DNA of 53,519 nucleotides from Desulfobulbaceae bacterium (GTDB lineage: Bacteria > Desulfobacterota > Desulfobulbia > Desulfobulbales > Desulfobulbaceae). The stretch's first letter is position 1. The number at the start of each line of letters is the position of its first letter. The position numbers and the translations under genes were made by a program. Location of the stretch: positions 1 through 53,519 of the forward strand of contig JAAYIE010000036.1 of assembly GCA_012744275.1 (NCBI GenBank), given 5' to 3'. Positions 38,524-53,432 of the stretch are shown piece after piece. The notes beneath the pieces were generated by a model, which made no database searches, was not told the DNA's origin, and saw nothing but the letters and a program-made list of their open reading frames with translations.

Positions 38524-39417
38524 ATGGCAAAAATTGCCTATTATCCAGGTTGTTCCGGGCAAAGCACCTCACTGGAGTACGACCTGTCCACCAGAGCGGT
38601 TTGCCGGGCTCTGGGCATTGAACTCGTTGACATTGAAGACTGGAGCTGTTGCGGCTCTACCCCCGCGCATACGGTCAACCATGTGCTGTCTGCGGCCTTG
38701 TCGGCACGCAATCTGGCCCTGGTTGAACAACAGGGCATGGATACGGTCACTACTCCTTGTCCGAGCTGTTTGAGCAACCTGCGCACCGCCGCCCATAAAA
38801 TGGAAGATGCAAGCTTCCGCGATCAGGCCAACGCCCTTTTGGATACTCCCTGCACCACAAAAATTGAAACGCTGTCCGTGCTGCAAGTGATCGCTGAACA
38901 GGTTGATGCGGAAACAATACGCGCCAAGGTTGTCAGGCCGCTCACCGGCCTGAAAGTGGCCTGTTATTACGGTTGTATCATGAACCGGCCCCCCGCGCTC
39001 ATGCAGTTTGACAACCATGAAAACCCCATGGCCATGGACAAACTTATGGGCCTTTTGGGAGCAGAAGTTGTGCCCTACCCCCTTAAAGTAGAATGCTGCG
39101 GCGCTTCCTTTGGCGTACCCCGGGTGGACATTGTCACCAGGCTAGCAGGAAAACTTCTGGATGCTGGCCGTGATTTGGATGCTGACGCCTTTGTCACTGC
39201 CTGTCCGCTCTGCCAGATGAATCTGGACATGCGTCAGGGGCAGATCAACACTGCCCTGAAGGAAAATTTTCGTATTCCCATATTTTACTACACCCAGTTG
39301 CTCGGTTATGCCCTGGGCATTGACGACAAAGAGCTGAAGTTCAATAAGCTCTGTGTCAATCCGCGGCCCGTTTTCAAAAAACTGAGCGAACTTAAAGAAG
39401 CGGCGCAAGCCGGCTAG
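38524..39417 (+). CDS. hdrB: Heterodisulfide reductase-like subunit B
   Basis: 297 residues with two cysteine-rich CCG domains. The first has YYPGCSGQS, WSCCGSTP and PCPSCLSNLR; the second has YYGCIMNRP, VECCGASFGVP and ACPLCQMNLDM. In methanogen HdrB these hold the non-cubane [4Fe-4S] clusters that cleave a disulfide. The motifs are complete, so a disulfide or trisulfide substrate is expected; in sulfate reducers the DsrC trisulfide is often proposed. It starts 11 bases after hdrC, with its own ribosome site duplicated in GGAGAATAGAGGAGAATAG. Confidence 0.95.
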   Translation: MAKIAYYPGCSGQSTSLEYDLSTRAVCRALGIELVDIEDWSCCGSTPAHTVNHVLSAALSARNLALVEQQGMDTVTTPCPSCLSNLRTAAHKMEDASFRDQANALLDTPCTTKIETLSVLQVIAEQVDAETIRAKVVRPLTGLKVACYYGCIMNRPPALMQFDNHENPMAMDKLMGLLGAEVVPYPLKVECCGASFGVPRVDIVTRLAGKLLDAGRDLDADAFVTACPLCQMNLDMRQGQINTALKENFRIPIFYYTQLLGYALGIDDKELKFNKLCVNPRPVFKKLSELKEAAQAG

Positions 39418-39426
39418 GAGGAAGCA

Positions 39427-41409
39427 ATGCGAATCGGCGTTTTTATCTGTCATTGCGGCAGCAACATAGCCGGCACCGTGGATTGCGAATCGGTAGCGGA
39501 GTTGGCTTCCGGCTTTCCGGAAGTCGTCTACTCCACGGATTCCATGTACACCTGTTCGGAACCGGGCCAGGAAGGTATTATCACTGCAATCCACGAACAG
39601 AAGCTGGATGGGGTGGTAGTGGCGTCCTGTACGCCACGTATGCACGAGCCCACCTTCCGCCGGGCCGTGGAGCGGGCTGGGCTTAATCGCTACATGTTTG
39701 AAATGGCCAATATCCGGGAGCATGTTTCCTGGATCGGCAAAGATAAGGAGCACAACACCAACAAGGCTGCTGACCTGGTGCTCATGGCCGTGGAAAAACT
39801 GCGCCGGAACAGGCCACTGGTGCCCAAGAGCTTTGAAACCATCAAACGGGTTCTGGTAATAGGCGGTGGCGTGGCCGGCATTCAGGCAGCACTTGACTGT
39901 GCCGACGGCGGCCTGGATGTGGTCATGGTGGAGCGCGACCAGAGCATTGGTGGTAAAATGGCCAAGCTGGACAAAACCTTTCCCACCATCGACTGCTCTT
40001 CCTGCGTACTGGGCCCGAAGATGGTGGATATTGCCCAGCACGAAAAAATCACCTTGCACACCTGTGCGGAAATTGAAGCGGTGAGCGGTTATGTAGGCAA
40101 CTTTTCAGTCACCATTCGTCGCAGGGCCACCTATGTAGATTGGACAAAGTGCACGGGTTGCGGGGTGTGTACGGAAAAATGCCCCAGCAAGCGCAGTCCA
40201 GATGTCTTCAACGAATTCATGGGCACTACCACAGCCATCAATATTCCTTTCCCACAGGCGATTCCCAAAAAGGCTGCCATCAATCCGGCTACCTGTACAA
40301 TGATCCAGAAGGGTAAATGCGGAGTCTGCGCCAAAGTCTGTCCGGTGGGCTGTATTGATTACGAGCAGCAGGACGAACTGATTAACGTGGATGTCGGCGC
40401 CATTGTGGTGGCCACCGGCTACGACCTCTTCGATTGGCACAAGTATCCACAATACGGGGAAGGCCGTTACCCTGATGTGATCACCTCGCTGCAATATGAG
40501 CGTTTGCTCTCCGCCTCCGGGCCCACCGGCGGCCACATCAAGCGCCCTTCGGACGGCAAGGAACCTAAAAATGTGGTGTTTATCCAGTGCGTTGGTTCAC
40601 GGGATCGCTCGGTGGACCGCCCCTACTGCTCGGGTTTCTGCTGTATGTACACGGCCAAACAGGCCATCCTCACCAAGGATCATATCCCCGACTCCCAGTC
40701 CTACGTCTTCTACATGGATATCCGTGCTCCTGGTAAGGGCTACGACGAGTTCACCCGCCGGGCCATGGAGGAGTATGGCGCACAATATGTGCGCGGTCGG
40801 GTTGCCATGATTTACCCACATGGCGAACAACTCATGGTGCGGGGTGCAGACACCCTGGCCGGAACCCAGGTTGAAGTACCTGCAGATCTGGTGGTGCTGG
40901 CCACAGGTGTGGAGGCAGCCCAAGGGGCGGTAAAACTGGGAGAAACCCTGCGGGTCGTACCGGATCAGTACGGCTTTTTTGTGGAAAGCCATCCCAAACT
41001 CAAACCCGTGGAAACCAACACCGCCGGGGTGTATCTGGCTGGGGCCTGCCAAGGACCAAAAGATATCCCCACCTCTGTTGGCCAGGGCAGCGCTGCCGCA
41101 GCCAAGGCCTTGGGCCTGCTCTCCAAGGAGCGGCTGGAATCCGATCCGGCGGTCTCCAAGGTAAACCTGAGTCGCTGCGTGGGCTGCCAAAAGTGTATTG
41201 GTACCTGTCCCTTTGGAGCCATCAAGGCGATTACCGATCGCCAGGGCAAGCTCAAAGCAGAGGTCATCGAAACCGTGTGCCAGGGCTGTGGTATTTGTAC
41301 GGTTACCTGTCCGCAGGGAGCGATTCAATTGGAACATTTTACCGATAACCAAATCCTTGCGGAGGTAAATGCCTTATGCCCGCCCAAGATGAACGCGAGC
41401 TTCGAATAG
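39427..41409 (+). CDS. hdrA: Heterodisulfide reductase-like subunit A (bifurcating flavoprotein)
   Basis: 660 residues. An N-terminal domain begins IGVFICHCGSNIAG. An FAD-binding Rossmann motif VLVIGGGVAGIQAALDCADG follows at about 141-160, and a cluster-binding Cys segment FPTIDCSSCVLGPKM. Ferredoxin-type inserts are CTGCGVCTEKCP and CGVCAKVCP. The C-terminal ferredoxin domain has CVGCQKCIGTCP and CQGCGICTVTCP. HdrA's flavin splits electron pairs between ferredoxin and HdrBC in the methanogen complex. Length and motifs are standard. The gene overlaps flxD by 34 bases. Together with FlxABCD it is expected to oxidise NADH and reduce ferredoxin and a disulfide. Confidence 0.95.
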   Translation: MRIGVFICHCGSNIAGTVDCESVAELASGFPEVVYSTDSMYTCSEPGQEGIITAIHEQKLDGVVVASCTPRMHEPTFRRAVERAGLNRYMFEMANIREHVSWIGKDKEHNTNKAADLVLMAVEKLRRNRPLVPKSFETIKRVLVIGGGVAGIQAALDCADGGLDVVMVERDQSIGGKMAKLDKTFPTIDCSSCVLGPKMVDIAQHEKITLHTCAEIEAVSGYVGNFSVTIRRRATYVDWTKCTGCGVCTEKCPSKRSPDVFNEFMGTTTAINIPFPQAIPKKAAINPATCTMIQKGKCGVCAKVCPVGCIDYEQQDELINVDVGAIVVATGYDLFDWHKYPQYGEGRYPDVITSLQYERLLSASGPTGGHIKRPSDGKEPKNVVFIQCVGSRDRSVDRPYCSGFCCMYTAKQAILTKDHIPDSQSYVFYMDIRAPGKGYDEFTRRAMEEYGAQYVRGRVAMIYPHGEQLMVRGADTLAGTQVEVPADLVVLATGVEAAQGAVKLGETLRVVPDQYGFFVESHPKLKPVETNTAGVYLAGACQGPKDIPTSVGQGSAAAAKALGLLSKERLESDPAVSKVNLSRCVGCQKCIGTCPFGAIKAITDRQGKLKAEVIETVCQGCGICTVTCPQGAIQLEHFTDNQILAEVNALCPPKMNASFE

Positions 41410-41873
41410 TCGGCTTTTTGTGTAACTGGTGCTCCTACGGGGGGGCGGATACGGCAGGTGTTGCCCGTTTCACCCAACCCACTGACCTGCGTATTATACG
41501 GGTGCCCTGCTCCGGCAGGATTGATCCGCTTTTTGTCGTGCGCGCCCTACTAAACGGTGCAGATGGGGTATTGGTCTCCGGCTGTCACCCCCGCGACTGC
41601 CACTATGCCGAGGGTAATTTCTACGCTCGCCGGCGTCTGGAGATGCTCAAGCGGTTTTTACCCATTACCGGCATTGACGAGCGCCGCTTCGAATACACCT
41701 GGGTCTCGGCCTCTGAAGGCCAGCGCTGGCAGCACGTGGTGACGGAATTCACCCGTCGCATCCATGAACTGGGCCCGGCGCAGTCTTTTAATCCGGCAAC
41801 CCAGGAGGAGTGGTTTAATCTGGCCCTGAACGAAGCGTCCAAGGGCGAAGCCTGTGCCTGCCACGGCTCATGA
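41376..41873 (+). CDS. flxD: MvhD/FlxD-type electron-transfer subunit
   Basis: 165 residues, MvhD family, binding a [2Fe-2S] cluster. Characteristic segments are VGFLCNWCSYGGADTAG, IRVPCSGRIDPLFVVRAL, and GVLVSGCHPRDCHYAEGN, with four conserved Cys. In methanogens MvhD connects hydrogenase to HdrA; in bacteria the same protein connects the Flx NADH dehydrogenase. A G7 run occurs at 41439-41445 with the frame intact. It overlaps hdrA by 34 bases and is followed by a 91-base gap containing a GCCGG/CCGGC hairpin. Confidence 0.94.
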   Translation: MPAQDERELRIVGFLCNWCSYGGADTAGVARFTQPTDLRIIRVPCSGRIDPLFVVRALLNGADGVLVSGCHPRDCHYAEGNFYARRRLEMLKRFLPITGIDERRFEYTWVSASEGQRWQHVVTEFTRRIHELGPAQSFNPATQEEWFNLALNEASKGEACACHGS

Positions 41874-41964
41874 TATTCTGCACAGCAAACAAGACCACGA
41901 AACAGTCTGTTTTGCCGGGAGCACCGGCACAGACAGTGCGAACTTGCTATCAAGGAGAGGGAAA

Positions 41965-42921
41965 ATGTCCCAATTGGAAGAGTTAAAGGCCGCCATTCGG
42001 GGGCATTTGGACTCGCTGGATTGCGTGATCGGCTGGGAGCAGGGCTATGATCCTCTCCATGCCACCCCGCTTTTTATCCGCAACGAGAGCGATCTTGAAC
42101 GGCTGAGTATCAGCCCGCTGGCTGTACATAATCCGGCCACCTATGCTACCGGCTTTGCAGGTAAAAAAATCGGCATGGTGGTACGGGGCTGTCATAGCCG
42201 CAGCATCATTGAACTCTTGAACGAAAAACTGATTGAACGGGAAAATGTGGTGCTGTTTGGCCTCTGTTGCGACGGTGTGGTCAGCCAGCGCAAAATTCGC
42301 ACTGCCCTGCCCGCTGATCCCGGCTTTGTTGAGGCGGTGGAAATCGGCGATGATGCACTGCACATTACGCTTGCTGGTGAAAAAACCACCATCAAACTCC
42401 AGGATGTCCTGGCCGATAAATGTCGCATTTGCGCCTACCCTGACCCGCTCTTGGCTGATGTGCTGATCGGCAATAAGCATGACTCCCGTCCTGAGGAAAC
42501 ACTGGCCTGTCAGGAAGCCTTTGAGGCCAAACCCAATGCCGAAAAATTTACCTTCTGGCAGGACACCATGAGCCGCTGCATCCGCTGCTACGCCTGCCGC
42601 AATGTTTGCCCCATGTGCGTGTGCCAGGATTACTGCATTGCCGCCAGCCGCGACCCCCTTTGGATGAGCCAGGAAAACAGCCCGGCTGAAAACTTTATGT
42701 TCCAGATGATTCATGTCTCTCATCTGACCGGCCGCTGCACCGAATGCGGTGAATGCGAACGCGCCTGTCCGGTGGACATCCCGCTTATGCTACTGCGTCG
42801 CTACATGAATAAACAGGTGCAGGAGGTGTTCGGGCACCAGGCAGGAACCTCATTGGACAAAACCCCGCCGCTGCTCACCTTTCAGGTTGAAGAAGCGCGC
42901 ATCAAGGAGCGAGACTGGTAA
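41965..42921 (+). CDS. flxC: FlxC-type iron-sulfur subunit (FrhB/FdhB-like)
   Basis: 318 residues from the ATG at 41965, with AAGGAGAGGG upstream; a frame open from 41854 runs inside the previous gene. The first 200 residues resemble F420-hydrogenase beta/FdhB proteins (GMVVRGCHSRSIIELL, FGLCCDGVVS, DKCRICAYPDP). Then come two Cys clusters: CIRCYACRNVCPMCVCQDYC and CTECGECERACPVD. In the described bacterial FlxABCD-HdrABC systems two iron-sulfur proteins of this kind relay electrons from FlxA. The B or C label between this and the next gene is a positional judgement. Its TAA shares a base with the next ATG. Confidence 0.85.
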   Translation: MSQLEELKAAIRGHLDSLDCVIGWEQGYDPLHATPLFIRNESDLERLSISPLAVHNPATYATGFAGKKIGMVVRGCHSRSIIELLNEKLIERENVVLFGLCCDGVVSQRKIRTALPADPGFVEAVEIGDDALHITLAGEKTTIKLQDVLADKCRICAYPDPLLADVLIGNKHDSRPEETLACQEAFEAKPNAEKFTFWQDTMSRCIRCYACRNVCPMCVCQDYCIAASRDPLWMSQENSPAENFMFQMIHVSHLTGRCTECGECERACPVDIPLMLLRRYMNKQVQEVFGHQAGTSLDKTPPLLTFQVEEARIKERDW

Positions 42922-43958
42922 TGGAACGATTCATCACAGAGGCCAATTTGCAGCAGTTTGCTGCAACCTTGGCCGGGAAAAAACACGTGCTGGCCCCGGT
43001 TGCCTCCGGTGGCACCACCTGCTTTCGTCGTTTGGTGCCCGGTATGCGGCTCGACTTTTCCCGCATGGCCGTTATCTCCCCAAAGGATGCCACCTTCCCC
43101 CGCAATGAAACTCTGCTGCTCGTGCAACGTTATGTGGAAGAATCTGGCAAAAAGCTGGAGTTGAAGGAACAACTGCCCGAAGGGGAATGCATTGTCATCG
43201 GCAGTCGCCCCTGCGGGGCCCGCGGCAAACTTATTTTTGATCCGGTGTATGAGACCGAAGCGATCAAGGACCCCTACTATCTCAGGCGGCGAGACAACAC
43301 CCTTTTCATCACCCTGAGCTGTGATCGGCCAGAAAGCACCTGTTTTTGTCACAGTGTGGGCAGCAACCCTGCGGACGGAACCGGCTCAGATGTACTTTTG
43401 ACCGCGGTGGAAGGCGGCTTTTTTGCCCGCGCAATCACTCCCAAGGGCGAAGAGCTGCTTGCAGATGCACTTTTTGAAGAGGCAGGTACACGCGCTGAAG
43501 AAGCGGCGGCCAAGCAGACAAAGGCTAGGGAACTCATGGGCCAAGCTCATGATTTTTCCTCTGCGGCAGCCAAGCTGCTTGAGCGTTTTGATGACATGGG
43601 CTTCTGGCAAGCCCAGTCAAATAAATGCATCTCCTGCGGAGCCTGTACTTACATGTGCCCCACTTGCTACTGTTTCAACATTACCGATGATGAAGCAGGC
43701 CTGGTGAGCCGTCGTTTACGCTCCTGGGATAACTGCATGTCGCACACCTTCACCCTCGAAGGTAGCGGCCATAATCCACGCGGCACCAAAGCGCACCGCC
43801 TGAAGAACCGGGTCGGACACAAGTTCAGCTACTATCCGGATCTGCACGCCAGTCAGATTGCCTGTTGCGGTTGCGGTCGCTGTATCAAACAATGTCCGGC
43901 CGGGGTTGATATCCGCCAGGTCGTGATGGCAGCACAGGAGTACGTCGATGAGCGCTAA
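42921..43958 (+). CDS. flxB: FlxB-type iron-sulfur subunit (AsrA-like)
   Basis: 345 residues resembling the AsrA/HydB-type electron-transfer proteins. The N-terminal half is a ligand-binding-like region (VLAPVASGGTTCFRRLV, IVIGSRPCGARG, FFCHSVG-like Cys segment reading STCFCHSVGSNP). It ends in two [4Fe-4S] motifs: KCISCGACTYMCPTCYC and CCGCGRCIKQCPAGVD. It overlaps flxA by 11 bases and shares one base with the previous gene. It is expected to pass electrons between the FlxA flavin and the Hdr part of the complex. Confidence 0.85.
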   Translation: MERFITEANLQQFAATLAGKKHVLAPVASGGTTCFRRLVPGMRLDFSRMAVISPKDATFPRNETLLLVQRYVEESGKKLELKEQLPEGECIVIGSRPCGARGKLIFDPVYETEAIKDPYYLRRRDNTLFITLSCDRPESTCFCHSVGSNPADGTGSDVLLTAVEGGFFARAITPKGEELLADALFEEAGTRAEEAAAKQTKARELMGQAHDFSSAAAKLLERFDDMGFWQAQSNKCISCGACTYMCPTCYCFNITDDEAGLVSRRLRSWDNCMSHTFTLEGSGHNPRGTKAHRLKNRVGHKFSYYPDLHASQIACCGCGRCIKQCPAGVDIRQVVMAAQEYVDER

Positions 43959-44778
43959 TCCCTATCTTCCCGATATGGCGACTGTGGTCGAAGTTATCGA
44001 AGAAACGCCGAATATTAAATCATTTCGGCTGGTTTTAAACGATGACGACAAAATGAAAACCTTCACCTTCCAGCCGGGCCAGGTTGGCCAGCTTTCGGTT
44101 TTTGGTGCAGGCGAATCCACCTTTGTCATCAATTCCTCGCCAACCCGGATGGACTACCTTCAGTTCAGTGTGATGCGGGTGGGTGAAGTCACCACCCGGT
44201 TGCATCAGCTCAAACCCGGCGACCAGATTGGCGTGCGCGCTCCCTTGGGAAAACCCTTCCCGGTGGAAAACATGAAGGGAAAAAACGTGCTCTTCATCGG
44301 CGGCGGCATCGGCATGGCACCCCTGCGTACCCTGTTTACGTACATGCTCGACAATCGCAGCGACTTTAAAGACATAACCTTACTTTATGGTGCACGCACC
44401 CCGGTAGATCTGACTTACCAGGAGGAACTGCCTGAATGGCTGGGCCGTGAAGATATCAACACTGTACTCTGTGTGGACAACGAATATCCTGGCTGGGAGC
44501 ACAAGGTAGGCCTGATTCCCAATATTTTACTGGAGATGAATCCTTCTCCTGAAAACACGGTGGCCATTACCTGCGGCCCGCCGATCATGATTAAATTTAC
44601 CCTGCAGGCGCTGAAAAAACTGGGATTTGAGGATGAACAAATCATCACCACCCTGGAAAAACGCATGAAATGTGGAGTAGGTATTTGTGGCCGGTGCAAT
44701 ATCGGCACCAAGTATGTGTGTCAGGATGGCCCTGTCTTTACCTATGCCCAACTTAAGCAGCTGCCCTCGGAACTTTAG
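43948..44778 (+). CDS. flxA: FlxA-type NAD(P)H-oxidising flavoprotein
   Basis: 276 residues of the ferredoxin-NADP reductase superfamily. The FAD-binding beta barrel (FQPGQVGQLSVFGAGE; NSSPTRMDYLQFS as the flavin motif) is followed by an NAD-binding domain (FIGGGIGMAPLRTLF, YGARTPVDLTY, ITCGPPIMI). The end carries four Cys for a [2Fe-2S] cluster (CGVGICGRCNIGTKYVCQDGP), as in PyrK-like proteins. It is the likely NADH entry point of the bifurcating complex. It is followed nine bases later by a rubrerythrin-like gene. Confidence 0.92.
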   Translation: MSANPYLPDMATVVEVIEETPNIKSFRLVLNDDDKMKTFTFQPGQVGQLSVFGAGESTFVINSSPTRMDYLQFSVMRVGEVTTRLHQLKPGDQIGVRAPLGKPFPVENMKGKNVLFIGGGIGMAPLRTLFTYMLDNRSDFKDITLLYGARTPVDLTYQEELPEWLGREDINTVLCVDNEYPGWEHKVGLIPNILLEMNPSPENTVAITCGPPIMIKFTLQALKKLGFEDEQIITTLEKRMKCGVGICGRCNIGTKYVCQDGPVFTYAQLKQLPSEL

Positions 44779-44786
44779 GAGCGATT

Positions 44787-45257
44787 ATGGCTGGTATTTT
44801 TAAGGCAACCGACATCCTTCTGGCTGCCCAGGAGGTGGAAACACGGGGCGAGGTGTTTTACAACCGCCTGGTGGAAACAGCAACAGACGAAAAGCTGAAG
44901 GAAACCTTCCGCTTTTTAGCAGATGAAGAAGTCAAACACCGAGAAATCTTCCGCAAACTCTACGAGCGGCTGGGCCAGGTGGAGTTACCTCCTTGGGCCG
45001 AGGAGGACGAATACGCCAGTTATCTGACCTTCCTCATTGACTCCCACACCCTGTTTCGCCTGGGCGATGTGGACAAGATCAGGGAATTTACCGGCAGCCG
45101 GGAAGAAGCTATAGAAACAGCCATGGGCTTTGAAAAGGATACGATTCTCTTTTTCACCGAAATGCGCGACTTTGTGCCCGAGGGAGAAAAGAAATATATC
45201 CAGGACTGCATTGAGGAAGAACGCGCCCATCTGCGCCTATTGGCCAGCCTGCTCTGA
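44787..45257 (+). CDS. Rubrerythrin-type ferritin-like protein without rubredoxin domain
   Basis: 156 residues forming a four-helix ferritin-like domain. Di-iron ligand motifs are visible as AAQEVETRGEVFYNRL, DEEVKHREIF and a closing EEERAHLRLL. No C-terminal rubredoxin domain is present, so it is an erythrin-type protein; it may reduce hydrogen peroxide or bind iron. It is the last gene of the hdr-flx operon, with a strong terminator 29 bases after its stop. Placement suggests protection or iron supply for the iron-sulfur-rich complex. Confidence 0.9.
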   Translation: MAGIFKATDILLAAQEVETRGEVFYNRLVETATDEKLKETFRFLADEEVKHREIFRKLYERLGQVELPPWAEEDEYASYLTFLIDSHTLFRLGDVDKIREFTGSREEAIETAMGFEKDTILFFTEMRDFVPEGEKKYIQDCIEEERAHLRLLASLL

Positions 45258-45285
45258 TTCCTTCCTCCTTGCTGACATTCGATAT

Positions 45286-45318
45286 AAAAATGGGCGATAC
45301 TCTATTCGCCCATTTTTT
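45286..45318 (+). terminator. Intrinsic terminator of hdr-flx operon
   Basis: Twelve-pair stem AAAAATGGGCGA/TCGCCCATTTTT (45286-45297 with 45306-45317), eight-base loop, and a T run at the end. Because the stem begins with A and ends with T, it also works leftward, for the ModE-type gene that ends about 260 bases to the right. Confidence 0.9.
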
Positions 45319-45576
45319 GTGCCTTCCGAAAGACCACCGGCCTTTCAGTTCCAAACCAAAGGTGATCTCAAAGCGTTTTGGGAGTATGGTGTGGACGCAC
45401 TTGCGGCATTCTCCGCTACATTGACCGAGTAACAATTTATAAGGACAAAGGTGGTAAGGGCACTGGCGACAGCTAATGATCGTATTGGCAAAAAGCAGCC
45501 TTCCGACAGTAGCCAAACACCAGGCTATACGGAACAAGTCTAGCGGAGAACAGCCAGGTGAGCTAAGCCAAGCCTA
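45319..45576. other. Non-coding stretch with possible ORF remnant
   Basis: About 258 bases. On the plus strand a reading frame continues FQTKGDLKAFWEYGVDALAA through a TAA into another open stretch up to about 45543, giving the impression of a broken gene. I recognise no family, so it is noted only as possible decay. Confidence 0.3.
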
Positions 45577-45960
45577 TTACTCTATTCGCTCCTGCTCTAT
45601 CCACCCCTGAAATCGCCGCACCAACTGCGCAAAGTCCTCAATGGCCCGCTTGCCTGCGTCAGTCAGCCAGGCCCCCCCGCCGCGCCGTCCGCCCACCTGT
45701 TTTTCTACTAATGGTTCCGGAGCAAGGGCATTCATATCTTCAATGAGATGCCAAGCATGACTGAAACTCATTTGCATGGATTTTGCGGCAGCCGAAACTG
45801 ATCCGTATTCCTCGATACGTTCAAGCAGTACGACCCTCCCCCATGAAAGGTACGTTTTGCCCTCTCTTTCTATCCATACCCGTCCTTTGATCTGCAGGCC
45901 ATTACTGACCTGACTGAAGGCCAAGGCGTTACGCTCATTTTTTTTTGGTAGTTTGGGCAT
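45577..45960 (-). CDS. ModE-family regulator, DNA-binding domain only
   Basis: 127 residues from the ATG at 45960 (136 from 45987; neither start has a good ribosome site). It is the winged-helix domain of the molybdate regulator ModE: GRVVLLERIEEYGSVSAAAK, MSFSHAWHLIEDMN, GGRRGGGAWLTDAGKR. The C-terminal molybdate-binding MOP domains of E. coli ModE are absent, so it belongs to the short ModE-type group, whose effectors are often unknown. It is transcribed divergently from the cytochrome gene; 142 bases separate the two ATGs. A dyad ATGCATGCAT lies at 45982-45991. It is a candidate regulator of the cytochrome. Confidence 0.88.
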   Translation of the reverse strand: MPKLPKKNERNALAFSQVSNGLQIKGRVWIEREGKTYLSWGRVVLLERIEEYGSVSAAAKSMQMSFSHAWHLIEDMNALAPEPLVEKQVGGRRGGGAWLTDAGKRAIEDFAQLVRRFQGWIEQERIE

Positions 45961-46102
45961 ATTAGTCTCGCTATTGGTTGAATGCATGCATGTTGCTAGC
46001 AGGTAAAATTATCTTGCTTTTTCATTATGCTTTTATAAGTATAACGAAAATATGCGCCCCCTTTGCTCGCCACAGGAAAATTTTGCATGTAAGCAGGCAC
46101 CC

Positions 46103-47410
46103 ATGAAAAGAATCTCCAAAAAAATGCTACTGGCCTTGGGTTTAGTCGGTCCGCTCCTTTTGGCGCACGCCAATGCCGAAGAGCAGAAAGCCAAAACCAT
46201 AGCCGAATTGGTCGCCAGGTACGATTCCTCGTCCTGTGTCGACTGCCACATGAAAGAGTATGATGAATGGAATAAATCCTTGCATGCTCGCTCTATTTTT
46301 GGGCCGTTGGAAGTCGGTCGTACAGCAGCTACCTTTATCACCACCATAGAAAATGGTCTCAAGGAGTGGCCACATTCCGGGGTGAAAACTCGAGAAGATG
46401 TTGGCGTCAAACATTTAATGGTTTGCGCTAAGTGCCACCTGCCACAATTGCAGGACGCAGAAGACAGTGTTGCCAGAGAAATCGTGCAAAACCTCTACGC
46501 CTTTGCCGAAGATCCGGAGGATGAGGAGATCAAAGATACCCTGCTCTCCCTGAATATCAACTGTCTGGTCTGCCATAACCGCAACGCTATTACCCACAAA
46601 TGGACAGAAGGCTATCCAGACGTAAAAACTGTCTATGGCTCAAAAACCGGGCCCCATGACGATCCAGCCTATCCCACCATGAAGGCAAGCACAATCATGG
46701 GGGAGAGTATCCTTTGCGGCCAATGCCATGGTTTAGGCCCCAACTTTGAACTGGACAATCCCACCCAATGCGCCACCCTGTATGGCTCGCATCTTTTTGC
46801 CTACATTCCGGATGGCGGCAAGCATACCTGTCAAGAATGCCACATGCGCAAAAGCGGATTGGGCCATGATATGCAAGCCTATCGCTCTCCGGAAATGGTT
46901 AAAATGGCGCTTGATGTGGAGGTAGAGGCAAACGCCTTTCAATGGCGGGATGTCAACACCATGACTCCTGCAGCCCACTTGCTGGTGGAAATCACCAACA
47001 AGGCGGGTCACGCCATTCCGGACGGCTGACCGACCCCAAACCGGGTGGCACTGTATGTGACCGCGAAAACATTGGATAACAAGGTATTCTACACCAACGA
47101 AAAAATCTATATGCCCATACCGCAACAGCTTGGACGTGGGCAAAAAATGGGCCGGGGACCCTATGAGAAAAGCGGCCTGATCCATGATTCAGCCCTGCCG
47201 CCTCGCAAAACAACCAAGGAATCCTTCATGATTCCAGTTTACACAGAGAGCGAGGAGGAAGGGAAACTCATCCGCACCCAGATTGCCCAGGATTTTGTGG
47301 TGGAAGTGGAAATCTGGTACCTGCCCTACGGTAAAAAGGATGACCCAGGCAATGCACAGAAATGGTTTAGTGTGACAAAAAATCTGCATCTTCCGGCTGA
47401 CGAAAAATAA
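46103..47410 (+). CDS. Five-heme cytochrome c, candidate selenoprotein (in-frame TGA)
   Basis: Exported multiheme cytochrome with signal peptide MKRISKKMLLALGLVGPLLL-AHANA. The ATG at 46103 is preferred over 46052 because it begins the signal. Five CxxCH motifs: residues 45-49, 108-112, 154-158, 205-209 and 243-247. The frame meets one TGA at 47027-47029 (residue 309, after NKAGHAIPDG) and then stays open in the same frame for 126 more codons to a TAA at 47410, with no frameshift. Related cytochromes often carry Cys just after this Gly-His motif. A SECIS-like hairpin follows. Read as selenocysteine, the protein has 435 residues. From memory, Geobacter ExtKL is a comparable selenocysteine multiheme cytochrome. 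If TGA is a stop, a 308-residue product remains. Likely periplasmic or surface electron carrier. Confidence 0.8.
47027..47063 (+). promoter_or_regulatory. In-frame TGA plus candidate bacterial SECIS hairpin
   Basis: The TGA is followed by C. A hairpin pairs CGG-U (47042-47046, one bulge) with ACCG (47060-47063) and CAC (47049-47051) with GTG (47057-47059), with two G bulged at 47047-47048. The loop is TGTAT (47052-47056). The loop begins 23 bases after the TGA and has G as its second base, in line with the usual bacterial SECIS rule. The stem is short and bulged, so the call rests on the open frame as much as on the fold. Confidence 0.5.
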
Positions 47411-47442
47411 TCCCCCGTTATTGGCGCTTTAGTCGGATAAAC

Positions 47443-47468
47443 GGGCAGGACGCGGCAGCGTCTTGCCC
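47443..47468 (+). terminator. Strong hairpin after cytochrome gene, no U tract
   Basis: Eleven-pair stem, GGGCAGGACGC (47443-47453) with GCGTCTTGCCC (47458-47468), one G-T pair and a GGCA loop, 32 bases after the cytochrome stop. No T run follows, so it may protect the 3' end or separate expression of the DUF169 gene. Confidence 0.45.
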
Positions 47469-47622
47469 AACTCCTTCCCTTGAAAGACTTTAAAAGCAGA
47501 CCAAGGGAAGGCGGTATGCTCAGTTGCTGTACATGTGTTTCCTCTTATTCAGCAACTACCACAATGGGCTGCCAAAATCCGTGCCAAATCTTATTCTCTT
47601 CATTTCTTCCAGGAGTACACGA

Positions 47623-48408
47623 ATGACGCACCATAATTACGGCGAAGCCCAGGAATTCCTCATGCGTGAGTTGCGGCTCATGACCGCACCCATTGCCATC
47701 AAATATTTTTTTGACGAGCAGGAGCTTGAAGCTTTCCGGGCCAAAGCTTCCCACTATGTGCCGGTTAAACCGATCACCTTCTGCCAGGCCGAAATTGGCG
47801 CTCGCATGGAAGATCTTGCCGTGCTGGTTGAGCCAAAGAAATTAGGCTGTGCCAATGCCCGTTATGTCTTTGGCTGGAAGGACTTTGACGAGGCGGAGGT
47901 AAAAAGCCACATTAAATACTGCCAGGATATGGATCAGGCCCAACGTTTCGTCCAAAGTAAACCCAGGCTGCAGGACGACAGAACACTCCTGGCCGTGGCA
48001 GTGGCTCCTCTGGCGCTCGCTACAGAACAACCTGATGTTGTCCATTTTTACTGTGACAACATGCAGGCCTATCACCTGATTGGAGATTGGATGGCCAGCC
48101 AGGATGTGCATCCATTCAGGCCTTCCCTGTCCATCAATTCCGCAGCCTGCGGCGGTAATGTCTTCAGTCATAACGCCCAACAGGCCAACATGTTTCTTGC
48201 CTGCAGCGGCAGCTACAATTCCGGTAAAACAGAACGGGGAGAACTCAACGTCTCCTTTCCCTTCAGTCATCTGCCGGATATGATTACACGCATGCAAAAG
48301 CGCATTGAAGAAAAGGGTGGTGTTTCCATTACCCGTCTCGGTAACCCCTTTCCAGGGGCGGATATCTGCAAGAACTGCCCCCTGATCAGCTTCAAAAAAG
48401 CCAACTGA
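47623..48408 (+). CDS. DUF169 family protein
   Basis: 261 residues from the ATG at 47623 (AGGAG upstream; a frame open from 47524 has no ribosome site). The family is recognised by AITFCQ-like PITFCQAEIGARM, KKLGCANARYVFGW and the closing GNPFPGADICKNCPLISF. DUF169 proteins occur mainly in anaerobes and archaea; function is unknown, and the conserved Cys suggest metal, heme or thiol chemistry. It is on the same strand as the cytochrome, 212 bases downstream, and ends at a bidirectional terminator shared with trxA. No signal peptide is seen, so it should be cytoplasmic. Confidence 0.85.
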   Translation: MTHHNYGEAQEFLMRELRLMTAPIAIKYFFDEQELEAFRAKASHYVPVKPITFCQAEIGARMEDLAVLVEPKKLGCANARYVFGWKDFDEAEVKSHIKYCQDMDQAQRFVQSKPRLQDDRTLLAVAVAPLALATEQPDVVHFYCDNMQAYHLIGDWMASQDVHPFRPSLSINSAACGGNVFSHNAQQANMFLACSGSYNSGKTERGELNVSFPFSHLPDMITRMQKRIEEKGGVSITRLGNPFPGADICKNCPLISFKKAN

Positions 48409-48495
48409 GCCAGCAGCCAATCACCCCCAAAACAGGACTAGGTCTTGTAGGCCACTTGCAGCTGCAACCCTGAACAACCTTGAAAACGGCATAAA

Positions 48496-48526
48496 AAAAC
48501 ACAGGGCCTGTCTGACCCTGTGTTTT
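48496..48526. terminator. Bidirectional terminator between DUF169 gene and trxA
   Basis: Eleven-pair stem AAAACACAGGG/CCCTGTGTTTT (48496-48506 with 48516-48526) with a nine-base loop, A-rich before and T-rich after. It can serve both convergent genes. Confidence 0.85.
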
Positions 48527-48570
48527 CCTTTCCCTGTGGCGCATAGATGATAGCGCCCTTTTTGCTTGTA

Positions 48571-48885
48571 TCAGCCTTCGTTGATCATCTGCAGAACTTT
48601 TGGCTTCTGCTGCAGACCCTTGACACGCTTGACCTCTTCTCCCTTTTTGAAGAGCAGCAGGGTCGGGTAGCTTTCCACCTTGTATTTGGCTGTAGCATCC
48701 TTGTTGGCATCAAAATCAATTTCGCCAATACTGACGCCATCAACATCCTTGGCAATATCTTTCAAGACAAAACGCAGCATCTTGCAAGGACCGCAGGTCT
48801 TGGAATAAAAAATAACCAGAGCCTTGTCTGCTTTAATGACCTCATCGAGTTGTGCGCTATCGAGTTCCAGTACTTCTGTTGCCAT
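48571..48885 (-). CDS. trxA: Thioredoxin
   Basis: 104-residue thioredoxin fold. The active site YSKTCGPCK has Cys31 and Cys34; the more common WCGPC has Trp in place of Thr here. The cis-Pro is in VESYPTLLLF. It lies 25 bases downstream of trxB on the same strand, so it is the direct electron acceptor of that reductase. The two follow the sulfotransferase gene. Confidence 0.94.
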   Translation of the reverse strand: MATEVLELDSAQLDEVIKADKALVIFYSKTCGPCKMLRFVLKDIAKDVDGVSIGEIDFDANKDATAKYKVESYPTLLLFKKGEEVKRVKGLQQKPKVLQMINEG

Positions 48886-48910
48886 GCAATACCTCCTTAT
48901 GAATGTATGA

Positions 48911-49843
48911 TTACTTTGTCAGGGATTTCACATATCTGGCCGCTGCCTGGGCGGCATAGGCGCCGTCGCTGCAGGCGGTGACAATCTGGCGCAGCATCTT
49001 GCTATTGATATCGCCTGCACCAAAGATGCCCGGCACCTTGGTGGCCATCCACTCATCGGTTTCAATATAACCGAATTTATTAAGAATCCCCAAGTTTTCA
49101 AAGGCCTGTGCAGTCGGTTCAAGGCCAATGTATTCAAAAGCACCGTCCGTTTCGACCACGATTTCCTCGCCGGTCTTAGACGACTTGGCCCGCACCTTCT
49201 CCATGCGTTCGCCACCGATGAATTCAATAATATCGTGCCACTCGTAGATCTTCACATTGGGCATAGCGCGCAGTTTGTCGCAGGCGCTCGGGTCAGCAGT
49301 GAGATCCAGCATGGTGATAACGGTCAGTTCAGTGGCAATACTGGCCAGGTAGAGGGATTCCTCCACGGCGGAGTTACCGCCGCCAATAACCACGACCCGT
49401 TTGCCACGATACTGGGCACCGTCACAGATGGCGCACCAGCTCAGACTGCCTCCGGCAAAATCTTCTTCACCCGGTACGCCCAAACGGCGCGGCATGGTAC
49501 CGGTAGCGATGATGACTGACTTGCAACGATAGATTGGCCCTTCTTCGCAGTGGAGAATTTTGTCGTCGCCATCCAGTTCAATGCGATTGACCGTGCCATA
49601 GTCGAACTCCACGCCCATCTCCTGAGTGTGTTCAAACATCTTGATAGCCAGTTCAGCACCGTTGATGATGCCGGTAGCGGGATAATTTTGCACTTCCAGG
49701 GTGTTGACTACCTGGCCGCCCGGAGCAAGTTTGTCCAGCAGCAACAGATTCAGGTTTGCCCGCTTCGCATAAATTGCAGCGGTCATGCCTGCAGGTCCTG
49801 CGCCAATAATCACCAGATCATAGCTTTTCGTGGTATCACTCAT
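48911..49843 (-). CDS. trxB: Thioredoxin reductase
   Basis: 310 residues, low-molecular-weight flavoprotein. FAD motif VIIGAGPAGMTAAIYA near the start, redox-active CAIC (137-140) in LSWCAICDG, an NAD(P)H-binding GGGNSAVEESLYLA, and the closing GAGDINSKMLRQI-like flavin motif are all present. The pyridine-nucleotide domain cannot be assigned to NADPH or NADH by eye. It is co-transcribed with trxA and lies 73 bases after the arylsulfate sulfotransferase gene. Confidence 0.95.
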   Translation of the reverse strand: MSDTTKSYDLVIIGAGPAGMTAAIYAKRANLNLLLLDKLAPGGQVVNTLEVQNYPATGIINGAELAIKMFEHTQEMGVEFDYGTVNRIELDGDDKILHCEEGPIYRCKSVIIATGTMPRRLGVPGEEDFAGGSLSWCAICDGAQYRGKRVVVIGGGNSAVEESLYLASIATELTVITMLDLTADPSACDKLRAMPNVKIYEWHDIIEFIGGERMEKVRAKSSKTGEEIVVETDGAFEYIGLEPTAQAFENLGILNKFGYIETDEWMATKVPGIFGAGDINSKMLRQIVTACSDGAYAAQAAARYVKSLTK

Positions 49844-49916
49844 GGTGTGCCTCTTTTTCCGTTACTATGAATGAAGGGGTAGCAAATCGCCTTCTCTCCG
49901 TTAATAATGGTCTATT

Positions 49917-51785
49917 TTACAGCGCTACATGTACCCCAGTTTCATACTTTTTGTCATCAACAATCAACCTGATAGCAAAGGAGCCAGCAAGTCCCTTGCG
50001 GCTTATCGGGAACTCCACCGCCCGTTCATCAGCCTCCTGGAAGGTGCCAACGCACATGGCCAGGAAGGGCCGCTTGGTGGTGGGAACAAAGTAGCCAACG
50101 GTTTGCGCCCCCTCCAAAAGGAGCATGACCATCTGCCCCTTTTCAAAGGTGGCCTTGAGAATGATGCGGTCTTCTTCCAGGCCGATCTTGACATTGTATT
50201 TATCCGGCACTTCGCCGCCCGGTTCAGTATCCGGGATGGTGAGGAATTGTTCGGTCACGCCCAGATCACCCAGGAGTTCTCCCTTGCCGAAGCTGAGCAC
50301 ATCCTCCCTGCAGTAGGGTTGCAGCTTCTCGGCACGGTAGTAGTTGGCGGGCAAATGCATCTCGTACACGATCGTGTCGTCCTTGAGCTCGACAGTAATT
50401 GAGTTCAAGACCAGATCCTTTTCATCGTCACCGCGCACCTGCGCCGGCGGCTTGTTCAGGGTTTCACCCTTGAACCGGCCGATACCGCCCGAATGCACCA
50501 TGTAGTGGCCTTCGCCGTAGTATTCCACGTTGCAGATATAGGTGGAGAAAAAGTCTTCGCCGCGCTCCTTGCCAAACTGCCAGACCTGTTCGATCTCCAT
50601 CTTGCTGGTGTCGATGCGGTAGCGCACTCCGCGGGAAAAGTTGTCCTTGGCAGGCACATAGTTTTCCTTACGCTTGCCACGCCAGTGGCCGTTATCAAAA
50701 CACATGATATCGCCATCGGGCACCACCACGCAGGCGTGCTGCTCATACTGCCAGTCAAAATTCTTGACATCGCCCACGGGCTTGAAAAAGTACTTGTCCA
50801 CCATGTCCTGGGGCCAGTTGTCCGGGTCGCCGATAATCCAGTTGAGCTTGCCAGAATCATAGTCAATGTTGATGACCGCGTCCTGATGCCTGCCGGAAAG
50901 AGTGAGGCTGTGGGTTTTCTTGTCGTACCAGACCGCATTGTTGTGGAACCAGTCGTGCTCGTCCTGGCTGCCGGAGCCGCCCACATCCTGGGGCAGCGAC
51001 TTCTGATAATCCCAAGACTTGAGGATAGCGCCGGTATTGCGGTCAACCAGAACGCACATGTCTTCCACTGTGCCCCGGGGCGGGTCCTGGGTGAGGATGA
51101 GCAGGTTGCCATCTTCCATCTCAAACTGATCGTGGTGATAGCCGCCGGGAATGCGGAATTCCTTGTAGATCTTGCCGATCATGCCCATCTCATAGATGCC
51201 GGTGGTGTGGTAGGGCGGCATAAGCAAACGATGGGTGCCCACCAGCAGACGGCCGTTTTTCACCCGCTTGATGTCAAAGGCAAGATTCAGGGTGCAGTAC
51301 CAGCGCGGATCACCCTTGTAGTCATATCCGGCCACCAGGGCCGCGGTGGTGGGGCCGACAAACATGAGATTGTCCTGAAAGTAATCGGACGTGGTCTCCA
51401 TTTTGGTGGGGAGTTTCACCTTGTCCGGCAGGGCTTCGGTCTTGATAATGACACTTTTTTTAGCGCCACTGCCAAGTTTCAGCTCAACCGTATTGTCAGA
51501 GCCGCCGTAGAGGCCATACACCGGGATGACATGCTCGGTGGCAGCGGGAAGATCAAAATGCATGTCTCCGTCTGCCTGCCTGCCCTTCACGTTAACAGTG
51601 ACAGTTTCAGGCTTATCGGTCTTGAACATGATCAGGGCGGTGAGTGGTGCGATCAGGTAGGGGTTGAGTTGCACAAAGGGCTGCTCAAAGCTGTGGCTCC
51701 CTTTTTTGTATGCAGCCAGAAAAGCCTGTTCCGCCTGGTACTGCTCGGTGATGATGTGGTCGAATTGTTTGAATTTAACGCTCAT
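49917..51785 (-). CDS. Arylsulfate sulfotransferase (AssT family), no signal peptide
   Basis: 622 residues from the ATG at 51785, which has AGGAGG upstream. An open frame extends to 52337 but crosses the transporter gene and is not used. The family is recognised from GGYHHDQFEMEDGNLLIL, DEHDWFHNNAVWYDKK, LTLSGRHQDAVINIDYDSG, WQYEQHACVVVPDGD, and YMVHSGGIGRF, with several conserved His expected in the active site of this PAPS-independent enzyme, which moves sulfate from one phenolic ester to another. Well-studied homologues in E. coli and Salmonella are periplasmic; this one has no signal, so it should act in the cytoplasm. It is followed by trxB and trxA and preceded by an SLC13 transporter. 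Confidence 0.9.
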   Translation of the reverse strand: MSVKFKQFDHIITEQYQAEQAFLAAYKKGSHSFEQPFVQLNPYLIAPLTALIMFKTDKPETVTVNVKGRQADGDMHFDLPAATEHVIPVYGLYGGSDNTVELKLGSGAKKSVIIKTEALPDKVKLPTKMETTSDYFQDNLMFVGPTTAALVAGYDYKGDPRWYCTLNLAFDIKRVKNGRLLVGTHRLLMPPYHTTGIYEMGMIGKIYKEFRIPGGYHHDQFEMEDGNLLILTQDPPRGTVEDMCVLVDRNTGAILKSWDYQKSLPQDVGGSGSQDEHDWFHNNAVWYDKKTHSLTLSGRHQDAVINIDYDSGKLNWIIGDPDNWPQDMVDKYFFKPVGDVKNFDWQYEQHACVVVPDGDIMCFDNGHWRGKRKENYVPAKDNFSRGVRYRIDTSKMEIEQVWQFGKERGEDFFSTYICNVEYYGEGHYMVHSGGIGRFKGETLNKPPAQVRGDDEKDLVLNSITVELKDDTIVYEMHLPANYYRAEKLQPYCREDVLSFGKGELLGDLGVTEQFLTIPDTEPGGEVPDKYNVKIGLEEDRIILKATFEKGQMVMLLLEGAQTVGYFVPTTKRPFLAMCVGTFQEADERAVEFPISRKGLAGSFAIRLIVDDKKYETGVHVAL

Positions 51786-51817
51786 AATGTCCTCCTGAAT
51801 AGGTGTTAATACAGCGT

Positions 51818-53296
51818 TTAGAAGAAGAGTTGGGAAACCGGGTAACCCAGCACCAGATACAAACCGATTGTCATGGCCACGATAATCAGGCCGTAACGGA
51901 AGATCTCGCCCGGATCGACCCATTCCTTGTTGCCGTACAACACCGCCGCATAGGGCGAGGCCGCCGGGGTCAGGATGGCGATGTGCAGGGCAAAGGCCAG
52001 GATCGTGGCCGTAGCCGCCGGGTTCGCGCCGTTTTGCAAACTGAAGGCGTAGACAATGGGCATGAGCAAGACGCCCATGACCGCATTGTTGGCGAACTGG
52101 GTGATAACGACCGAGGTTGCCACGATCACTATGGTGAACATGAAGGGGCTCTGGCCCCCCAGAATCGGCCGCAGGGTCTCGGTGAGGAAGGGAGCGATGC
52201 CGGTGGCCGGGTTGGTGAGGGCATCGGAAATCACCATGGCCATACAGACCAGGAAATACACGTCCCAGACAATGTAGCGGCCTGCGATCTCCTTGAAATT
52301 GATCACCGGTTGACCATCTTCGGCCTTCAGGAAACACAGCACGGCCACAAAGACGATCACCACGCCCCAGGGCCCCATTCTGTTGAGCAGGGCGATAAAG
52401 CCAAGCGATTTTGGCAGGATGCTGGGCAGCAGCACCAGGGCGAGGTAACCGAACAGGGAGGCAAAAAGGATCTTCTGGCGCAAGCCCATGGCGGGCAGTT
52501 TGTCCTGCTTGAAACGCTCAATGCTGATGCCTGCAATCTTTGACATATCTGGACGGAAAAAGAAGCGCATCATCAAGACAAACAAAACAAGGCTGGCCAC
52601 TGACATGACCACGCCAAAACCCATGTAGGGCAGATAATCCAGGCCTTGCTTGGCTGCCTTTTCGTAGGCGCCCACCATCATCAGGGCGCTGCCGGTAAAG
52701 GGCTTGGCCGCCTGGCCCGAGATGGCGGCGAACATGGTGCCAATAATCATGACCGTGGTGTATTTATCCCCTTTCTTGTAGCCAACATCCTGCAGAACGC
52801 CATAGAGAATGGCCCACATGAACAGAAGCGCGGGGAGGATATTGGCGGAAAGGGCTGCCAGCACATAGGTGGTGAACAGGAAAATGAAGCTGAAGATGAG
52901 CGGACGGCCGTTGATCATCCTGCGGGTAAGGAACCAGCGGCTGATGTAGTTGGTTACCTTGTGATGCTGAATTGCGCCGAAAAGGACCATGGCAAAGAAG
53001 ACCAGCACCGGCACCACATCGCCAAAGGCACTCAACAGCACCTTGCGCATGGGCGCATAATCCGAAAGCCCAAGGGCAATAATGCCCAAAAGGCTGGGCC
53101 AGAGCACGCTGACAAAGCTCCACAGGTAAATCATGCCGGCGAAAATACCCATAACTTGCATGCCCACCGGGGTCACCGTGCCAAAGGGCGGCAGGTGGCC
53201 AAAACCGAAAATGAGCAGCAGGCCTATGATACTGTGCACGTAGTACATTGTGTTACTTTTTTTAACTGGAGGTGAAGCTGGGGGGCTGGCGGTCAT
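51818..53296 (-). CDS. SLC13/DASS-family anion transporter
   Basis: 492 residues from the ATG at 53296 (AAGGAG upstream; the frame is open to 53362). After a short Pro/Ser-rich cytoplasmic tail there are about a dozen helices. DASS features include an ASxxSN-type membrane re-entrant region (AALSANILPALLF) and a second in TSVVITQFANNAVMGVLL, with the motif PAASPYAAVLYGN near the C-terminus. Members carry dicarboxylates, sulfate or related anions into cells. It begins the transporter-AssT-trxB-trxA transcript, so the substrate may be a sulfate ester or an anion linked to it; this is inference. Confidence 0.9.
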   Translation of the reverse strand: MTASPPASPPVKKSNTMYYVHSIIGLLLIFGFGHLPPFGTVTPVGMQVMGIFAGMIYLWSFVSVLWPSLLGIIALGLSDYAPMRKVLLSAFGDVVPVLVFFAMVLFGAIQHHKVTNYISRWFLTRRMINGRPLIFSFIFLFTTYVLAALSANILPALLFMWAILYGVLQDVGYKKGDKYTTVMIIGTMFAAISGQAAKPFTGSALMMVGAYEKAAKQGLDYLPYMGFGVVMSVASLVLFVLMMRFFFRPDMSKIAGISIERFKQDKLPAMGLRQKILFASLFGYLALVLLPSILPKSLGFIALLNRMGPWGVVIVFVAVLCFLKAEDGQPVINFKEIAGRYIVWDVYFLVCMAMVISDALTNPATGIAPFLTETLRPILGGQSPFMFTIVIVATSVVITQFANNAVMGVLLMPIVYAFSLQNGANPAATATILAFALHIAILTPAASPYAAVLYGNKEWVDPGEIFRYGLIIVAMTIGLYLVLGYPVSQLFF

Positions 53297-53432
53297 CTCA
53301 GGATCTCCTTGCGAGTTGGATGGCGGAGTTGGAAGCACACGAGCACATCGAATGAACTGCATTGATTGTTCATTTATTTTGATAGCAATGCCTAATTGAC
53401 TTTTTTTCCGAAATAAAACAAAACATTAATAA

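Follow-up and report, generated by a model that had tools for sequence, protein, structure and literature searches.

The window analysed here, a stretch of 53,519 nucleotides from a Desulfobulbaceae bacterium, includes a gene for a multiheme c-type cytochrome whose reading frame is interrupted by a single TGA. This raises the question of whether the codon ends the protein, reflects a defect of the sequence or is a site of selenocysteine (Sec) insertion and, in the last case, what directs the insertion and what the residue might do. An initial annotation, made from the letters alone, had proposed a probable selenocytochrome. This proposal is supported by a PDB selenoprotein with 58% identity which has Sec at the aligned position. 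The gene is a real selenoprotein gene of a known and structurally solved family, ExtKL/MccSep, and the proposal was therefore correct but not new. Relative to prior work, our analysis makes a modest addition: the definition of a probable SECIS element for the family and a description of natural Sec replacements.

A pentaheme cytochrome of the ExtKL family

The gene and its features are listed in Table 1. The single frame, the five CxxCH motifs and the lone TGA at codon 309 described in the initial annotation were all reproduced. The frame starts with an ATG at 46103, ends with a TAA at 47408–47410 and includes no further stop besides codon 309. A second in-frame ATG occurs upstream, at 46052; the start at 46103 and the signal-peptide-like N-terminus are matched by the nearest relative (L001) in the alignment, as judged by eye. 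It had also been claimed that codons past the TGA are of ordinary composition and continue a family-like sequence. Both claims hold: GC3 is 0.571 upstream and 0.563 downstream, and relatives align on both flanks of the TGA.

When the TGA is read through, the protein scores 568.2 bits against the NCBIfam profile NF040886 (cut-off 250), with residues 21–430 covering profile positions 24–422 of 423. This family carries the title "multiheme c-type cytochrome (seleno)protein ExtKL" and is characterized by five N-terminal CxxCH motifs and an in-frame TGA (or Cys) after GHxxPDG, and the window gene has both the motifs and the TGA. Among Pfam profiles, only Cytochrome_C7 is found above cut-off. The source assembly consists of 159 contigs and the window ExtKL is known here from the gene alone.

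Table 1. Features of the ExtKL gene and of its surroundings in the window.
Feature	Position	Strand	Remarks
ExtKL-family pentaheme c-type selenocytochrome gene	46103..47410	+	435 residues with Sec; NF040886, translation with TGA as U, PDB relatives
Probable Sec-type signal peptide, residues 1–25	46103..46177	+	by eye: MKRISKKMLLALGLVGPLLLAHANA; lipobox Cys absent by eye
Heme motif 1, CVDCH, residues 45–49	46235..46249	+	both Cys and the His invariant, 68/68 rows
Heme motif 2, CAKCH, residues 108–112	46424..46438	+	invariant in alignment
Heme motif 3, CLVCH, residues 154–158	46562..46576	+	invariant in alignment
Heme motif 4, CGQCH, residues 205–209	46715..46729	+	invariant in alignment
Heme motif 5, CQECH, residues 243–247	46829..46843	+	invariant in alignment
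HxxPDG-Sec motif, H303 to Sec309	47009..47029	+	C-terminal Ig-like domain, loop joining two strands (AlphaFold model)
TGA codon 309, selenocysteine	47027..47029	+	TGA 102/109, Cys 7/109 distinct copies, window included
Candidate SECIS hairpin	47045..47064	+	apical loop UGUAU, 47052–47056; 22 nt past the TGA; MFE -9.1 kcal/mol
Iron-sulfur/flavin redox genes, then rubrerythrin	38524..45257	+	include MvhD/FlpD-type; read as Hdr/Flox-like
ModE-like HTH gene	45577..45987	-	136 aa; 77 bits against NCBIfam cut-off of 98.5
Arylsulfate sulfotransferase (ASST) gene	49917..52337	-	Pfam 344 bits

Conservation was followed in alignment A1, which includes 68 of 69 selected rows; L119, where the gene is in two pieces and which carries PDD-U instead of PDG-U, was dropped by hand. 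Outside the heme motifs, His is invariant in 68/68 rows at positions 61, 255 and 303 only. With three such residues for five hemes, at least one heme may be without a conserved distal His. Among the Met, Lys, Cys and Tyr residues checked, the other invariants are Tyr178, Tyr234 and Cys223. Cys223 is not a heme-motif residue and is also Cys in the pentaheme cytochrome c552 structure 5ze8, which has Ala at the Sec column.

An AlphaFold model obtained from the 68 sequences (mean pLDDT 91.6) places Sec in a C-terminal domain loop. Its top match among solved folds is 5ze8 (Z 23.5, rmsd 3.2, 313 aligned residues within model residues 10–403; Foldseek E 6e-14). Residues 239–409 match many beta-sandwich domains with Z of about 8 to 10, which is informative only in the sense of "Ig-like". 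The predicted model includes the pentaheme c552-like layout, in which the N-terminal part binds heme and an Ig-like domain comes after it.

Codon 309 in relatives and the selenocysteine machinery

Profile searches identified the NF040886 family over cut-off in 96/257 genomes at the class level and in 43/395 at the phylum level. From 119 loci and the window we drew 109 distinct copies, leaving out L082–L086 (remote and under the family cut-off), L100 (identical with L147) and L010 (which is the window). The phylum set was represented by loci L150–L195, and 11 more rows over cut-off, with one TGA apiece, were left out. The seven Cys codons at position 309 are TGT in four copies and TGC in three, and neither TAA nor TAG occurs at this site among the 109. 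According to the initial annotation, related cytochromes have Cys or Sec directly behind the GHxxPDG motif. This is true of all 109 class-level copies and fails for a few tandem copies in the wider set, which have Pro, Ile or Val.

The seven Cys copies (L062–L068) are found in genomes of the window's own genus and each is one continuous ORF. Two of these genomes (G035 and G050) carry a TGA copy besides the Cys copy. A quick tree unites the Cys copies in a single branch (100) inside the Sec copies; their sister position has a support of 85 and comes with a long-branch warning. The sequences thus favour a single Sec-to-Cys change, which this support and this warning leave unproven. Six of the seven genomes retain selA, the exception (G045) being 76% complete. 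In the phylum set, Cys also occurs in place of Sec in G280, G561 and G524 (the G524 copy has an in-frame TAA), and the Cys copies overall, genus clade included, are from genomes of three families (f1, f39 and f40).

Other replacements are found in the tandem ExtKL pairs L176, L177 and L178, where one copy has Ile (G280), Val (G445) or Pro (G627), the Ile and Val residues being taken from the alignment. The partner copy carries Cys in the G280 pair and Sec in the G627 pair; in G445 the contig ends before this copy reaches the site. These copies indicate that the ExtKL scaffold can persist without Sec. When the Geobacter sulfurreducens pair GSU2937/GSU2936 was proposed as a possible selenoprotein in 2007, the family, if a selenoprotein, was described in the passages concerned as being without non-Sec homologues (PMC1914089). 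Judging from the sequences collected here, such homologues do exist.

The initial annotation had suggested a search for selA, selB, selC and selD, and all four are present over their cut-offs in the genome of the window. Profile search gives 612 bits for selA and 361 bits for selD (L028), which itself has an in-frame TGA. For both selB (364 bits) and tRNA-Sec (selC; 73 bits, ARAGORN anticodon tca), only one of nine matches is over cut-off. The selD gene is itself a selenoprotein gene, with the context AAG-UGA-AAK and a strong hairpin in the 50 nt that follow (-16.5 kcal/mol).

A candidate SECIS hairpin downstream of the UGA

Shortly after the UGA, the window sequence can fold into the hairpin GUGGCAC-UGUAU-GUGACCGC, with a loop of five and a G at loop position 2. 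The bSECIS model, as given in the relevant part of PMC13188914, calls for a loop of 3–9 nt with a G in the first two positions, an upper stem of 4–16 bp, a spacing of 16–37 nt and an MFE of -7.5 or lower. With 7 bp, one bulged base and the spacing and energy given in Table 1, the window hairpin fits this model.

Conservation at the nucleotide level was analysed in six-codon windows over 4157 pairs of UGA copies with less than 60% identity. Synonymous constraint in the gene peaks at codons 315–320, beginning 15 nt past the TGA; the mean excess in synonymous identity is 0.643 there, and the 267 windows average 0.053 (sd 0.088). Codon 308, directly 5′ of the TGA, is GGC in 100/102 UGA copies. In the seven Cys copies the constraint is lost only at codons 315 and 317 (observed 0.24 and 0.33 versus 1.00; 21 pairs), and this comparison is weak by itself since codons 312–314 and 316 remain identical in all pairs and the 21 pairs are of close relatives.

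Covariation was assessed in a set of 61 different 27-nt cores, where 92.3% of the cells are paired and four of the seven base pairs show changes on both sides. None of 500 shuffles reached any of the five measures, and sliding the partner by 1–3 columns gave at most 66.3% paired cells and at most two pairs with both-sided changes. Compensation is exemplified by GAUC/GAUC (L087 and L167) and by the replacement of C-G with G-C (L194) or with A-U (L182).

We also folded the 27-nt segment in 138 distinct 75-nt contexts. All limits of the bSECIS model are respected in 90/127 UGA copies and 0/11 non-UGA copies. The mean energies are -8.7 and -4.9 respectively, and the test p of 3e-7 is not exact because the copies are related. 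The Ile (G280) and Val (G445) copies are outside the 11 because the motif search missed both. Among the UGA copies, 37 fall outside the model: 35 do so on energy alone, most of them with -7.2 to -7.4 against the limit of -7.5 (one, L154, folds into another hairpin), and two (L161 and L152) fail on the loop as well. On average, the hairpin is more stable than re-codings that preserve the protein (mean z -1.81), although only 55/102 UGA copies, and 0/7 Cys copies, beat 95% of their re-codings; for the window hairpin, 9/200 re-codings are equally stable. When 47017–47080 is folded entire (z -0.46), the short hairpin is not outstanding by energy, and the case for a SECIS thus rests on conservation and covariation.

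At gathering scores, Rfam gives no match anywhere in the window, so the hairpin belongs to no curated family. RNAalifold applied jointly to all 102 UGA copies returned no structure (0.0), whereas sub-classes folded apart do give structure. Codon 316 (47048–47050) is GCA in seven UGA copies, the window and its near relatives, and GUC in 94/102. According to the folds, these two base changes shift the bulge from the U of codon 319 to the A of codon 320 and keep the loop-closing C-G. We attribute the joint null result to this shifted register between the GCA sub-class and the GUC class. A limited literature search, which is not proof, retrieved no published SECIS for the ExtKL family. The hairpin at 47045–47064 is probably the SECIS of the ExtKL gene. 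The UGA and the hairpin appear to form a recoding signal which has been retained throughout the phylum and which does not reach the model in any of the 11 non-UGA copies analysed.

Three readings of the TGA dispense with Sec. It could be a true stop, with ExtK and ExtL being two proteins from adjacent genes. This was left open in PMC1914089, where the passages on the pair also report that a SECIS was not found, and a two-gene structure is described, in the part of the article concerned, for ExtKL of G. sulfurreducens and for a homologue from a cable bacterium (PMC11976967). The first ORF does stop at the TGA. However, seven relatives have Cys in its place within a single continuous ORF, no other stop codon occupies the site in any of the distinct copies, the model hairpin is confined, among the copies folded, to those with UGA, and the PDB deposit of MccSep describes a selenoprotein whose Sec occupies the aligned site; two separate genes are therefore very unlikely. 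A UGA read as some other amino acid, through a reassigned code or plain read-through, is more improbable still: TGA terminates 13 of 28 large window ORFs picked by hand, indicating that UGA is not globally reassigned here, the four sel genes are all present, and relatives without Sec most often have Cys, with no Trp seen. Least credible, to the point of being negligible, is a Cys codon that was either misread in sequencing or mutated in a pseudogene. A single base separates TGC or TGT from TGA and the sequence comes from a single draft assembly, but the TGA is shared by 102 of the 109 copies, nearly all from other genomes, and a conserved hairpin lies behind it. The other copies refute an error unless all were miscalled. 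We rejected all three readings on this evidence.

The window gene very probably encodes an exported ExtKL/MccSep pentaheme cytochrome with Sec309, inserted at the UGA by SelA, SelB, SelC and SelD by way of the hairpin as a putative SECIS. The N-terminal part would bind five hemes and the C-terminal Ig-like domain would carry Sec309 in the conserved HxxPDG-Sec loop. Insertion by the Sel system of the genome would be directed by the hairpin 22 nt 3′ of the UGA, within the coding sequence, presumably through recognition by SelB. The protein would then be exported to the periplasm, where electrons may flow between the hemes and Sec.

Genomic context, possible function and known systems

Thirteen neighbouring ORFs (38524–53362) specify a ModE-like HTH protein, rubrerythrin, Hdr-like redox proteins, a DUF169 protein and thioredoxin-reductase-like, ASST and citrate-transporter-like proteins, and one has no profile match. 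In the absence of ext genes among these neighbours, the window gene is an ExtKL gene located outside any ext cluster. Among 34 loci, no gene outside the family has a constant position that recurs beside ExtKL, and a conserved operon partner hinting at function was sought across clades and not found. Only the ModE-like gene (L001 and L032) and the DUF169 gene (L001) recur among the window neighbours near relatives, and neither is near L002, which is 88% identical. Two clusters do recur, in six loci, with distances that vary.

The ModE-like gene is divergent from ExtKL and lies 115 bp from its start. A similar gene is found upstream of ExtKL in L001, where it is divergent, and in L032 and L098, where it is on the same strand. 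From this arrangement, it could be a regulator of ExtKL. The Hdr/Flox-like genes and the ASST gene are also located near the cytochrome gene (Table 1). In three loci of the same genus, L003 (7398–7835), L041 and L032, a small tetraheme cytochrome c3-like gene immediately precedes ExtKL and shares its frame. This upstream gene ends in TGA, and the Pfam assignment is that of the L003 copy.

What the protein does can be approached from the conservation of Sec and from the literature on the Geobacter orthologue. Both suggest, tentatively and with slightly less than even confidence on our part, that the hemes may exchange electrons with a reductive site which depends on Sec and acts on a small inorganic compound, for example selenite or a sulfur oxyanion. 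The section of PMC5877670 where ExtKL is presented as a proposed Sec cytochrome also mentions preliminary work that points to the reduction of selenite. A more specific version, which we consider rather doubtful, would place Sec309, six residues from the invariant His303, at the open sixth position of one heme, either as a selenolate ligand or as an adjacent catalytic residue, in a putative heme-selenium reductase. The protein could alternatively be only a periplasmic electron carrier, a partner of a conduit for extracellular electron transfer, in which Sec tunes or protects and is not catalytic. This is a serious possibility, if not one that we would favour. The sections concerned of two studies point in this direction: extHIJKL was studied as a putative outer-membrane conduit cluster (PMC6148476), and for sulfate reducers of seeps it was suggested that an OetI-type conduit may have ExtKL-like proteins as partners (PMC10553843). 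Tandem copies which persist without Sec also fit a carrier; against it, the site is Sec or Cys in every class-level copy.

These results support the view that an apparent stop in a multiheme cytochrome is a Sec site, and annotation and structural studies that treat ExtKL as two genes therefore need correction. The conserved hairpin provides a testable SECIS element for the family. Natural copies with Cys, Pro, Ile or Val in place of Sec provide matched comparisons for the role of selenium in a multiheme protein of sulfate and metal reducers.

The closest parallels are with previously described systems. Like the window gene, ExtKL of G. sulfurreducens (GSU2937-GSU2936) encodes a pentaheme cytochrome with an in-frame TGA, and the TGA separating ExtK and ExtL is remarked on in the pertinent passage of PMC6148476. 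The Geobacter gene is part of extHIJKLMNOPQS, together with genes for a porin, a rhodanese and other cytochromes, as described in the section on that cluster (PMC5877670). In contrast, no rhodanese, porin or further cytochrome was found in the 13 ORFs scanned around the window gene. The pentaheme cytochromes sPHC and lPHC of cable bacteria belong to a family in which their authors also place ExtKL, in the passages concerned (PMC11976967); "selenocyst" and "selenoprotein" have no occurrence in the main text of that article. The family is also listed, in the relevant part, in a 2026 review (PMC13188914).

At the structural level, the pentaheme c552 of Thermochromatium tepidum (5ze8) has the same overall fold, and the alignment extends over the heme part as well as the C-terminal domain. 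Identity with the window protein is 20% and the Sec column is occupied by Ala in PHAMPTG-A-P (HMMER alignment). The MccSep entries were absent from the fold-search results, whose library ends on 2026-04-08, and were compared by sequence. MccSep ("Multiheme cytochrome c selenoprotein"; PDB 9wt8, 9wta and 9wtb) is 58% identical to the window protein over 412 columns, shares its five CxxCH motifs and has X at the aligned site, in GHxIPDG-X-PTPNR. In the MccSep U325A sequence (9wt9 and 9wtc) Ala stands where 9wt8 has X, and it aligns, unshifted, with window residue 309. Counted from the deposited sequences, the X of 9wt8 and the Ala of 9wt9 both occupy chain position 325. From the deposited names and sequence, we take this X to be Sec, the counterpart of Sec309 in the window protein.
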